From: Gemmatimonadaceae bacterium
Lineage (GTDB): Bacteria > Gemmatimonadota > Gemmatimonadetes > Gemmatimonadales > Gemmatimonadaceae
Assembly: GCA_019186945.1 (NCBI GenBank)
Contig: JABAQJ010000006.1
Location: 248,001-312,000 of the forward strand
Length of the DNA: 64,000 nucleotides
Reading direction: 5' to 3'
In this document: positions 24,739 through 64,000 of the stretch, piece after piece
Layout of the letters: every line of letters starts with the position of its first letter
How positions within the stretch are numbered: the first letter of the stretch is position 1
Program-made: the position numbers and the translations under genes
Notes under the pieces: model-generated
What the model was told of the DNA's origin: nothing
What the model saw: the letters and a program-made list of their open reading frames with translations, nothing else
The model's database searches: none

Positions 24739-26700
24739 ATGGCCGCAGAGTCTTCTGCCCCCCAAGGGGACCGGACAGTGGCTGGACGCCGACACATCGT
24801 GGTCTTTAAGCGCGGCACCGGGAACGTCGCGCGGACGGCACGACAGGTCGCCGCGATGGGTGGCGCGCGCCTGGTCTGGGTCTACGATGCCGTCATAGGG
24901 GGCTTTGCCGCCGTCTTCCCTTCTCAGTCTGCGATCTCAGCAGTAGCAGCCAACCCCTTGGTCGATTTCGTTGAAGAGGATAGCCCGACACACGGTGGTA
25001 CGCTTCAGGTGTCGCTGCCCTCCTGGGGACTTGATCGCATCGATCAGAGGTCGCTGCCGCTCGAAGGCTTCTACAGTTACGTCCGCGACGGAAGCGGCGT
25101 AACCGTGTACGTCGTTGACACCGGCCTGAACATGTCGCACTGGGACTTCGGTGGTCGAGCGGCGGCGGACTTCGACTACGACCCGAACAACCCGAACGGC
25201 ATGGGTGCCGATTGCAATGGACATGGGACGTTTGTCGGAGGCATTGCGGGGGGCGCGCTCTTTGGTGTGGCTAAAGGCGTGGCTTTACGATCCGTCCGTG
25301 TACTCGGGTGCACGAACACGGGGTTGGTCTCAGACATGATCGCGGGGATCAACTGGGTGGCACTGCATCACCAGCCGCCTTCCGTGGCCAACTTCAGCAT
25401 AACGAGCGACGCGCCGAGTCCATCACTCGACATGGCGATTTCCAACCTGGTTACCTTTGGCGTCCCCGCTGTGGTGATAGCCGGTAATGGGACGGCCAAT
25501 GACGGAATCGCTACGGACGCCTGCAACATTTCCCCGGCCCGGGTGAAATCGGCCTTCACCGTTGGCTCGACCGACAGTCAAGACGCAAAGGCCAGCACCT
25601 CAAACTATGGCACCTGTGTCGACCTGTTTGCTCCAGGCGATGCCGTACAGTCTGACTGCCTCGACAGCAATGTGCCGGCCTGCCCCGGGTCAGGGACGTC
25701 GTTCGCGGCTCCGCATGTCGCGGGGGCCATCGCGCTTTATCTCGCCCAGAAACCCTTGGCGACGCCGGGGCAGATTGTGAGCGCCTTCACGAACAGCGCC
25801 ACGAAGGGGAAGCTGACGAACGTTGGTGCAGGATCGCCAAACTCGCTTCTGAGCACTCTGTTCCTCGCGCGCGGTGTGTGGACGCAGGCGGCGCCGCTTG
25901 TCGCGCCTTCTTATGGCTCCGGCGCGTCAGTTCTACTGAACGGAACCCTCTATCACATTGGAAACAGTTACAATCAGACGTTCGCACCTGCCCTGAACTA
26001 TTGGGATCTGGCCCAGTCGCCTCCAATTCCGTTGTGTTATCACAGCCCCGCAGCAATCAACGGAAAAATCTATGTGCACGGCAACGCGTGCGCCGGGGGG
26101 GATAGCGCGCTCTATTCGTACGATCCGGCTACCGACCTATGGTCGCAGCGAGCCGCGGCACCAGTACAGCAGTACTCCGGAGCGATGGTGGCAATTGCCG
26201 GCAAACTCTATCTCCTAGCGGGCTTCAACCCAGGTGGAACGAACCTCGGGTCGCTCTATCGTTACGATCCAACGACTAACTCATGGACGCAGCTTGCGAA
26301 CGCGCCGCATCCTCACGCAGCCGCAGCCTATGGCGTTATCAACGGAAAGTTGTATATCGCTGGCGGAGTCGGTAGCTCTGGATATTCCGACAAGCTGGAC
26401 GTGTATGACCCGGGCACCAACTCCTGGACTACCAAGGCCTCGATGCCGACAGGGCGAGGATATGCCGCGTACGGCGTAGTGGGGTCGAAGCTCGTGGTCT
26501 TGGGGGGCATACTTGGGACTGGGAACATGGCTGCTAGTATCGAGTCCTACGATGCAACGACAGACGTCTGGACATACCATCCGCCGTTGCCGTCCCCCCT
26601 TCGTAATGCGAGTGGAGCGTTCATAGGGAACCTGTTCTTCCTCGTTGGCGGCTGCTATACTAGTTGTCTGAACTCGACCCAATACGTCACGGTCTTCTAG
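24739..26700 (+). CDS. Subtilisin-family serine protease (S8) with C-terminal kelch repeats
   Basis: Residues about 17-85 resemble an inhibitor I9 propeptide ('HIVVFKRGTGNVARTARQ'), followed by a proteinase K-like S8 domain with D127 in 'VVDTGLN', H162 in 'NGHGTFVGG', oxyanion N250 in 'IAGNGT' and S321 in 'GTSFAAPHVAG'. From about residue 380 there are four or five kelch blades ('YSYDPATDLWSQRAAAP', 'YRYDPTTNSWTQLANAP', 'DVYDPGTNSWTTKASMP') forming a propeller. No hydrophobic signal peptide is visible from ATG 24739, or from the TTG at 24670, which is odd for a propeptide-bearing subtilase. The kelch part is less GC-rich than its neighbours and uses ordinary TTA/ATA-type codons more freely, a hint of transfer. 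Confidence 0.88.
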   Translation: MAAESSAPQGDRTVAGRRHIVVFKRGTGNVARTARQVAAMGGARLVWVYDAVIGGFAAVFPSQSAISAVAANPLVDFVEEDSPTHGGTLQVSLPSWGLDRIDQRSLPLEGFYSYVRDGSGVTVYVVDTGLNMSHWDFGGRAAADFDYDPNNPNGMGADCNGHGTFVGGIAGGALFGVAKGVALRSVRVLGCTNTGLVSDMIAGINWVALHHQPPSVANFSITSDAPSPSLDMAISNLVTFGVPAVVIAGNGTANDGIATDACNISPARVKSAFTVGSTDSQDAKASTSNYGTCVDLFAPGDAVQSDCLDSNVPACPGSGTSFAAPHVAGAIALYLAQKPLATPGQIVSAFTNSATKGKLTNVGAGSPNSLLSTLFLARGVWTQAAPLVAPSYGSGASVLLNGTLYHIGNSYNQTFAPALNYWDLAQSPPIPLCYHSPAAINGKIYVHGNACAGGDSALYSYDPATDLWSQRAAAPVQQYSGAMVAIAGKLYLLAGFNPGGTNLGSLYRYDPTTNSWTQLANAPHPHAAAAYGVINGKLYIAGGVGSSGYSDKLDVYDPGTNSWTTKASMPTGRGYAAYGVVGSKLVVLGGILGTGNMAASIESYDATTDVWTYHPPLPSPLRNASGAFIGNLFFLVGGCYTSCLNSTQYVTVF

Positions 26701-61623: not shown

Positions 61624-64000
61624 ATGGCCAGCAAGAAGAAGGGGGCGGTACGGAAGCGCGCAGTGCAGAGCCCAGCTGTGTCAGCAGGGAAGCGCGTTGG
61701 GAAGCGGGTGTCCAAGGCGAGTGCGGCCGGAGGGAAGTCCGTGCCCGCGGCGGCGACCAAACGAGCGAAGAAGGTTGCGTCGGGGACGCAGCCGGCAGCG
61801 GCAACGATGCCGGCGGCCCCCGAGGCAGCGGCGGAGGGCGCGCGGACCATCGTGTACGTGCACGGTATCGGGAACAAGCCGCCGGCCTCGGTGCTGAAGG
61901 CGCAATGGGACCAGGCATTGTTCGAGTTCGATCTGGGTGAGCGCAGCCGGCTGGCCTATTGGGTCGATCGTGATCGATACCCCGTTGCAGAGGCCGGCGT
62001 TGCGTCTGGCGGTGATTACGGCGATGACGACGGGACGGCACCGACGGGTTCGTTCAGCCCCAGAGCGATGAGGGAGTCGTGGGACGCGGCGCGCGAGATG
62101 CAGCTCCTGGATGAGGACATCGACGAGTTGCTCAACGTGTCGGGCAAGGCGTCGGCGGAATCGAAGACGGCTCAACGGATGCGGGATCTGGCGTCCACGC
62201 TGCTGAGCGAGAACCACCTGGTGAAGGACGCCGACTTCGAATCCCTGGCGGAGAAGCATCGCGGCCCGGATGGTGCTGCGGCACGACGGATTCAGGCACA
62301 ACGGTACGGGGCGGCTGCAGTCGAGGCGAAGGTGTTTGGCTTCCTGCCGCGGCCGATGCGGCAGTGGATGACAAGGAGCGTGACGCGGATGTTTCTCCGC
62401 GACGTCAACGACCTCTTCGTCGACAAGGCGAAGAGCGAACGGATGCGGAACTCGCTTCGCGAGCGCTTGCGCGTCGGCGGCGGACCGTTCGTCATCGTAG
62501 CCCACAGTCAGGGGACGATGATTGCGTATTGCGTGCTCATGGAGCCGGAGTTCGCAGGGCTCGACGTGCAGTTGTTCGTGACGATGGGATCGCCACTGGG
62601 CATCAGGGAGGTTCAGGATTTCATCAGGGAGATGACGAAGCAGACCGTGCTCAAGGTGCCGCCGCAGGTCAAGCGCTGGGTGAACGTCTGCGATCCGCTA
62701 GATCCGGTGGCACTGGACAAGAACCTGGAGGGGGACTACGCGCCGAACGCCGGGAAAGTGAAGGTCGACAACGCCGTCACGTTCAATCCGGACTCGCCAC
62801 GGCACCCGCATTCGGCGACCGGCTACCTTGGCTTGGCTCAGGTTCGCGAGCCTGTGCGCGGTGCCGTGGATACCGGACTCTTTCAGCCCGTCGCGCAGTT
62901 CAAGATGGCGCGCGACGTCGTTCGAGCGTATGCGGACGCCCGTTCCGACGAGCGCCATCGCATCCTGGTGCAGCTGGAAGACTTCGCGACCACGTCGAAG
63001 AACCGCGAAGACGCACTGGCCAGAATCTACGAGGTACTTGGCGCCGGGGACCCGAACTCAGAACAGCGGCAGCTGCTGGATCCGGAGCCGTTGCAGAGAT
63101 ATGTCGCGCTCAACCTCACGCGAGAACAGGCTGAGCGATTGGGGGCGAAAGCTGTTGGCGATGCGAAGATTCCCGTCGCCCGCATTTGGAAAAACAGCGC
63201 CAAGTGGGCCTACCTGGACCGATCGATCCACACCACGCAGGCCTTTCCGGCGCACAATAGCTATCACGCCGAGGGCGCGGACATTACGTGGGCCGTGCTC
63301 GACTCGGGCATTCACTGGTCGCACCCGCACTTCGGCGAGAACTCCAGGACGATCGATGCCGTGTACGACTGCACCGATCCGTTGCAGCGACGTCACGGCC
63401 TGACGCCCCTGGACCGGGCAGACGAGGATCAGAGGCGGAAGGCCGACGATCGCTATGGTCATGGCGCCCACGTCGCGGGGATCATCGCCGGCTGTCATGA
63501 GGTCACCGACAGGGACGGGAAGCGGCGCCGGATGTCGGGGATGGCGCCCCTGGCCAAGCTCGTGATCTACAAAGTGCTGGACAACAACGGATCGGGTGAG
63601 GACTCGTGGATCATCAAGGCGATCGACCATATCTACGAGACCAACGAGCGGGCCGGACGCATCGTGATCCACGGTGTGAATCTGAGTCTGGGCGGAGAGT
63701 TCGACGTCGAGGCGTTCAACTGCGGGTACACGCCGCTCTGCGTGGAACTGCGCCGACTCTGGCGTCAGGGCGTGGTAGTGGTGCTCGCGGCCGGCAACGA
63801 AGGCTTCGCGTCGTTGAGTGCTGCCAACGGCGACTCGATACAGGCCAACATGCCGATGTCGTTAGGTGACCCCGCGAACCTCGACGACGCCATTGTCGTG
63901 GGATCGGTGCACAAGGAGCGACCGCATACCTATGGCACCTCGTTCTTCTCGTCTCGGGGGCCGACCGCCGACGGCCGAATGAAGCCGGACTGTGTGGCAC
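61624..64000 (+). CDS. Fusion of alpha/beta hydrolase and subtilisin-type protease, 3' end beyond the window
   Basis: From ATG 61624 (GGAG nine bases upstream) the frame is open for 792 codons to the right edge. Residues 1-75 are a Lys/Ala/Arg-rich tail without a signal peptide. Then an alpha/beta hydrolase begins at 'IVYVHGIGNKPP' (H80), with the nucleophile elbow 'VIVAHSQGTMIAY' (S295) and plausible acid and histidine D357 ('NVCDPLDPVA') and H394/H396 ('RHPHSATGYLG'). After a helical linker, a subtilase domain starts near 545: D560 in 'AVLDSGIHWSHPHF', H613 in 'DDRYGHGAHVAGIIAG', oxyanion N725 in 'VLAAGNEGF'. The catalytic serine should lie just past the window. Cytoplasmic location is inferred. 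I know no named family with this layout. Confidence 0.85.
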   Translation, partial: MASKKKGAVRKRAVQSPAVSAGKRVGKRVSKASAAGGKSVPAAATKRAKKVASGTQPAAATMPAAPEAAAEGARTIVYVHGIGNKPPASVLKAQWDQALFEFDLGERSRLAYWVDRDRYPVAEAGVASGGDYGDDDGTAPTGSFSPRAMRESWDAAREMQLLDEDIDELLNVSGKASAESKTAQRMRDLASTLLSENHLVKDADFESLAEKHRGPDGAAARRIQAQRYGAAAVEAKVFGFLPRPMRQWMTRSVTRMFLRDVNDLFVDKAKSERMRNSLRERLRVGGGPFVIVAHSQGTMIAYCVLMEPEFAGLDVQLFVTMGSPLGIREVQDFIREMTKQTVLKVPPQVKRWVNVCDPLDPVALDKNLEGDYAPNAGKVKVDNAVTFNPDSPRHPHSATGYLGLAQVREPVRGAVDTGLFQPVAQFKMARDVVRAYADARSDERHRILVQLEDFATTSKNREDALARIYEVLGAGDPNSEQRQLLDPEPLQRYVALNLTREQAERLGAKAVGDAKIPVARIWKNSAKWAYLDRSIHTTQAFPAHNSYHAEGADITWAVLDSGIHWSHPHFGENSRTIDAVYDCTDPLQRRHGLTPLDRADEDQRRKADDRYGHGAHVAGIIAGCHEVTDRDGKRRRMSGMAPLAKLVIYKVLDNNGSGEDSWIIKAIDHIYETNERAGRIVIHGVNLSLGGEFDVEAFNCGYTPLCVELRRLWRQGVVVVLAAGNEGFASLSAANGDSIQANMPMSLGDPANLDDAIVVGSVHKERPHTYGTSFFSSRGPTADGRMKPDCVA

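Follow-up and report, generated by a model that had tools for sequence, protein, structure and literature searches.

The 64,000-nucleotide stretch of Gemmatimonadaceae DNA analyzed here (the window; G000:C3:248001-312000 of a 3.95 Mb genome) ends inside a gene that joins an alpha/beta hydrolase to a subtilisin-type (S8) protease in one polypeptide. This gene is genuine and intact, with both of its catalytic triads in place. Its protease belongs to a clade whose functional coupling to hydrolases can be stated with high confidence, and we lean slightly toward reading the fusion as a single-chain protease-effector module, in which the S8 domain would cleave the chain upon infection or damage and so release a hydrolase that is otherwise held inactive.

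From the ATG at 61624 the reading frame is uninterrupted up to the window edge over 792 codons (ORF listing), as a sequence-only reading of the window had stated, and in the parent contig it closes with a TGA after 882 codons, 90 codons beyond the window (Table 1). That reading had also called a K/A/R-rich N-terminal tail, an AHSQG hydrolase with an HGIG motif, and the Asp, His and Asn of an S8 protease in the proper order, and it had looked to the rightward extension of the contig for the S8 serine. All of these are borne out: residues 1-71 contain 16 K/R and 2 D/E, Ser295 is accompanied by an invariant Asp360 and His396, and D560, H613, N725 and S823 (the serine of GTSMAAPH) are invariant in the fused orthologues. 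The claimed absence of a signal peptide agrees with inspection of the fusion protein by eye, by which none was seen. The suggested C-terminal sensor is absent, as the S8 domain ends the protein and neither a further domain nor a recognizable sensor lies C-terminal of it in the 882 amino acids.

Table 1. Coordinates of the fusion gene and its parts (window positions unless given as G000:C3)
Feature	Position	Strand	Basis or remark
Hydrolase-S8 protease fusion gene, 882 aa	61624..64000	+	Runs on 272 bases outside the window, stop at G000:C3:312272; ORF listing, parent-contig translation, six full-length orthologues
Basic K/A/R-rich N-terminal tail, residues 1-71	61624..61836	+	Predicted disordered
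Alpha/beta hydrolase domain, residues 73-435	61840..62928	+	Triad invariant in alignments; homologues adjoin or fuse with caspase/trypsin
HGIG, residues 80-83	61861-61872	+	Hydrolase motif
Variable lid/insertion, about residues 124-249, between first strand and nucleophile	61993..62370	+	HG-to-HSxG spacing; low pLDDT
Nucleophile Ser295 (AHSQG)	62506-62508	+	Hydrolase motif
Hydrolase Asp360	62701-62703	+	Invariant in alignments
Hydrolase His396	62809-62811	+	Invariant in alignments
Interdomain linker, residues 436-545, possible I9-like propeptide	62929..63258	+	Pattern conserved in S8 clade; low AlphaFold confidence
Subtilisin (S8) protease domain, residues 553-882	63280..64000	+	Pfam PF00082; PADLOC; Foldseek
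S8 Asp560	63301-63303	+	Invariant in alignment
S8 His613	63460-63462	+	Invariant in alignment
S8 Asn725	63796-63798	+	Invariant in alignment
S8 Ser823 (GTSMAAPH), outside the window	G000:C3:312090-312092	+	Invariant in alignment

Retention of the domain order in homologues had been set as a test of the fusion, and the two domains are fused in all six close homologues. The full-length fusion is kept in four Gemmatimonadota and two prophage-type contigs, with both triads intact in six of six. Two public Gemmatimonadota MAGs (L023 and L024) carry orthologues that are 67-68% identical, a further genome from the window's family (G014) has a full-length fusion at 53% identity, and two prophage-type contigs from IMG/VR (L094 and L095) have full-length fusions at 45% identity. 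The latter two were matched when IMG/VR was searched by the S8-part profile (A3); the full-fusion profile (A1) gave no matches there. The closest pair, L094 and L095, gives dN/dS values of 0.052 in the hydrolase, 0.055 in the protease and 0.55 in the tail. Both domains are thus under purifying selection, and the tail conserves charge, not sequence. Since the six orthologues share the whole architecture and dN/dS is about 0.05 in both domains, comparison at the sequence level rules out a chance ORF, and a local fusion artefact is ruled out by the orthologues that carry the fusion. A tyrosine integrase adjoins the fusion gene in both prophage-type contigs, and the integrase DNA of L094 shares 74% identity with its counterpart in Stenotrophomonas phage S1. 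By this likeness, the host is probably a Stenotrophomonas-like bacterium, and the fusion has probably crossed from one phylum to another.

The catalytic residues of the hydrolase (S295, D360, H396) stand in the correct order and are invariant across fused and stand-alone members (alignments A2 and A4). Every Pfam model falls below its cut-off for this part of the protein, the best match being PGAP1 (E = 0.008). The domain is homologous to stand-alone hydrolases (E = 1e-7 to 1e-15), and its core in the AlphaFold model of the L024 orthologue has the expected order of strands and helices. The assignment to the alpha/beta hydrolases is based on this motif conservation, the stand-alone homologues and the AlphaFold core, and the enzyme is probably lipase- or esterase-like. 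The spacing from HG to HSxG is 214 amino acids in the window protein. Stand-alone hydrolases have 167-184 there, and the L094 fusion has 170; the lid is up to 44 residues longer in the Gemmatimonadota fusions than in stand-alone forms, and L094 does without the extra 44. In the L024 model, the domain cores are predicted well, the lid and linker are of low confidence, and the tail has a pLDDT of about 30. The tail carries a net charge of +14 (+7 to +18 across the orthologues, with its sequence poorly kept), and it could bind nucleic acid or an acidic membrane.

The S8 domain matches Pfam PF00082 over residues 553-871 (E = 2e-45), scores 215 bits against the PADLOC "subtilase" model and, in the L024 orthologue, superposes on subtilisin BPN' with a TM score of 0.87 (Foldseek). 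Its Asp-His-Ser triad and oxyanion Asn occur in the order and fold of subtilisin, as expected of family S8. The linker between the two domains shows a pattern that is conserved across the S8 clade and looks I9-like by eye only; searches against Pfam and PDB profiles returned no I9 propeptide or other match, and an I9-like propeptide is therefore given as a possible assignment. A second S8 domain was observed elsewhere in the window, at 25090-25812 within a 680-codon frame.

The nearest unfused relatives of the S8 domain are plasmid genes of Rhizobium, Sinorhizobium, Rhodococcus, Methylorubrum and Miltoncostaea. Among the plasmids of these five genera, a hydrolase is the next gene in seven of seven intact loci (three alpha/beta, four MBL), and two of the loci add a patatin or Tle1 phospholipase. 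One plasmid locus (L187) was excluded, having an IS6 element directly upstream of the S8 gene and no intact partner readable downstream. A profile of the S8 clade was then compared with 395 Gemmatimonadota genomes, the matches being picked on S8 score alone and their neighbors inspected afterwards. It gave 20 matches, all at 1e-135 or better, of which 3 are fusions and 17 are unfused; because three candidates per genome were scored at first look, members of the clade may be missing from this count. All 17 unfused members have a hydrolase directly downstream (14 alpha/beta, 3 MBL), and at three of these loci the hydrolase ORF nominally overlaps the S8 gene, but the matched domain begins 39-84 bases past the S8 stop. 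Taken together, 24 of 24 intact unfused members are followed by a hydrolase (17 alpha/beta, 7 MBL), compared with none among 78 other S8 loci taken from viral contigs, which are a convenient and not a matched control. The protease is thus invariably coupled to one effector gene, in the 24 unfused members as in the 6 fused ones. The more distant members, in which the hydrolase is a separate downstream gene, speak for a functional connection between the two enzymes rather than an artefact of this locus.

In a maximum-likelihood tree all 30 members (24 unfused and 6 fused) fall in one clade with support of 100/100. Within it, fused members, members with an alpha/beta partner and members with an MBL partner form separate groups (support 86/94 for the fused and 87/77 for the alpha/beta group), and partner type requires three changes, the minimum possible. 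The exchange of partners follows the protease tree. Additional genes were observed around some of the pairs. Two loci (L184:1790-6057 and L209:1061-5586) hold three-gene sets of patatin, S8 and MBL, in which a phospholipase is added to the protease-nuclease pair. On a Miltoncostaea oceani plasmid (L186:3449-7587), a gene for a Tle1-like phospholipase (Pfam, 9e-61) comes after the S8-MBL pair. A very large ORF of 1420 codons, open at the locus end and possibly a helicase-type defence protein by eye, lies near a two-gene S8-hydrolase pair at L211:10740-15000.

The MBL partners match the PADLOC LmuA model at 1e-46 to 1e-53 and the Avs1a and RTasMBL models at 1e-27 to 1e-33, and on these profile matches they are assigned to the LmuA/Avs1a pro-nuclease family. 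Tuck et al. 2025 (PMC12799240) showed that such nucleases are made as proenzymes, which a partner trypsin or caspase opens, the switch being thrown during phage attack, and they expected further classes of protease-activated enzymes. The S8-MBL pair of Methylorubrum adjoins a guanylate-cyclase-fold enzyme, a prokaryotic E2 and a cNMP-binding CAP12/Pycsar TIR protein, and a SIR2 gene lies near another S8-MBL pair. The LmuA-type partners and the Pycsar-like and SIR2 neighbors place one branch of the S8 clade squarely among immune genes.

Relatives of the fused hydrolase also keep company with proteases. They adjoin caspase genes in Agrobacterium, Bradyrhizobium, Rhizobium, Hymenobacter and five Gemmatimonadota genomes, trypsins in Agrobacterium and Sinorhizobium, and a VMAP-M2 protein or NACHT/AAA proteins in Streptomyces. 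Weaker alpha/beta hydrolase matches in Gemmatimonadota (below about 1e-25) are mostly without a protease partner and were taken as other families. Kaur et al. 2020 (PMC7159879) describe an alpha/beta hydrolase as always neighboring the caspases of VMAP systems. Judged by homology, a hydrolase family that elsewhere partners caspases or trypsins is here joined to an S8 protease. Homology of the fused hydrolase to the alpha/beta hydrolase that lies downstream in two-gene systems was also considered. This was rejected, as the nucleophile elbow alone aligns (hhalign probability 30), and the two are taken as separate recruitments. Three further arrangements of the family were recorded: a 589-aa protein in which a same-family hydrolase is fused to a C14 caspase domain, paralleling the S8 fusion (L020:1204-2973, G044); a trypsin fused to an alpha/beta hydrolase of the same kind, with an S8 protease gene just upstream, on a Streptomyces jietaisiensis plasmid (L060:704-4403); and a stand-alone family hydrolase that adjoins an M19 dipeptidase gene (L093:6661-8752, G073).

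These associations can be combined into a scheme in which the S8 clade would be a cytoplasmic protease with a hydrolytic effector as its obligate partner, in this case the alpha/beta hydrolase. Tethering, the linker, or the lid or insertion of the hydrolase would most likely keep that enzyme inactive. Once infection or damage is perceived, the S8 domain would cut the chain in cis or in trans, the lid (residues 124-249) and the linker being candidate cleavage sites, and the freed hydrolase would damage the cell's own membrane or metabolites and so stop the invader. Read in this way, the fusion probably serves cell suicide or defence as a self-contained unit. That the protease acts on the hydrolase is suggested by analogy with the MBL branch and by the invariable coupling; activation by proteolysis, the direction of control, substrate, trigger and antiphage role are what we infer. 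Evidence against the module comes from L094, where the extra lid residues are missing, so that they are not universal in the fused clade. The lack of any recognizable sensor domain, the low AlphaFold confidence for lid and linker, and the ordinary surroundings of most copies also count against it. The earlier suggestion of an effector or defence enzyme, one of whose activities switches the other, stands as the best-supported reading, without its C-terminal sensor.

In the window genome, L023 and L025, the fused gene is surrounded by neither a defence island nor a shared operon and sits among unrelated housekeeping-type genes. The window gene is next to a sulfatase and a transporter-like gene (named by eye), and most of the examined two-gene relatives in Gemmatimonadota likewise have ordinary neighbors. 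The homologues of this copy, for which residence in defence islands had been a proposed check, are not in recognizable ones. Such surroundings, with the common use of alpha/beta hydrolases and S8 proteases as nutrient enzymes, would fit a non-immune coupling, namely a housekeeping enzyme for two-step degradation or stress, whose hydrolase and protease share a lipoprotein or polymer substrate or attack cytoplasmic storage granules. We regard this as unlikely, however, given partners that alternate among chemically unrelated hydrolases, including an LmuA/Avs1a-type nuclease, a patchy distribution (20 of 395 genomes), and the plasmids, integrase neighbor, and TIR, SIR2 and Pycsar-like genes near some loci. 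Because of the ordinary neighbors of the fused and most two-gene copies, our confidence is high for the coupling and moderate for proteolytic control of the hydrolase by the S8 protease, and antiphage function has about an even chance.

A secreted or contact-delivered antibacterial toxin, with a hydrolase like the Tle-type phospholipases and a protease that processes it on delivery, would agree with a weak similarity to Tle3 (Pfam, E = 0.15-0.23) and with the Tle1-like gene after the Miltoncostaea S8-MBL pair, but it is quite improbable for a protein in which no signal peptide was seen, and beside whose gene no secretion marker, adaptor or immunity gene was seen. The reversed direction, in which a lipid or ester signal would be sensed or modified by the hydrolase, which then licenses the protease as an executioner that digests host or phage proteins, draws on the N-terminal position of the hydrolase, a common place for a regulatory domain, and on the equal conservation of the S8 catalytic residues, but it has a small chance of being right, as the MBL-branch partner is homologous to a nuclease that is targeted by its own protease (PMC12799240).

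If this reading holds, the S8 clade would extend proteolytic immune switching, shown in bacteria for a trypsin or caspase acting on an MBL nuclease (PMC12799240), to one more family of proteases (the third) and to two more effector chemistries (the second and third). More tentatively, and short of an even chance, the clade may represent an undescribed class of immune module in which the S8 protease is constant and the killing enzyme exchangeable (an MBL nuclease or either of two unrelated alpha/beta hydrolases, with phospholipases added). The window gene would then be a form in which a self-cleaving chain unites the protease with its pro-enzyme. The single-chain form is directly testable, with one gene, two catalytic serines and one possible cleavage.

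Several known systems resemble the fusion in part. In the gated pro-nuclease pairs of Tuck et al. (HamM-HamA, Avs1, Lamassu LmuA and Canu; PMC12799240), a protease is always paired with a hydrolytic effector, and the MBL family is common to them and to one branch of the S8 clade; the protease there is a trypsin or caspase, whereas here it is an S8 enzyme, the window effector is a fused alpha/beta hydrolase, and activation would be by analogy. The alpha/beta hydrolase-caspase pairs of vWA-MoxR/VMAP and related conflict systems (PMC7159879) have the same hydrolase family beside a caspase and near VMAP and NACHT-type proteins. The window locus differs in having its S8 protease in the same chain and no vWA, MoxR, VMAP, EAD or STAND component, and the gene is not assigned to these systems. 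IetAS (the S8 protease IetS with the ATPase IetA) likewise employs an S8 protease in defence, and weak matches to the IetS profile were obtained (3e-14). Membership was rejected, at 33 bits against an NCBIfam IetS cut-off of 900, and no IetA-type ATPase was seen as a neighbor of the fusion gene. In the fungal HET-Q1/HET-Q2 gasdermin-subtilase pair (reviewed in PMC10989679), a neighboring subtilase or caspase-type protease controls a self-killing effector, which is a pore-forming gasdermin there and an alpha/beta hydrolase here. Neither an S8 protease paired with an MBL or alpha/beta effector nor a single-chain form was found in the open-access literature, most subscription papers being outside that scope. 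The pairing of protease and effector is itself already known; an S8 protease in that role, and the single-chain form, would be additions to it.
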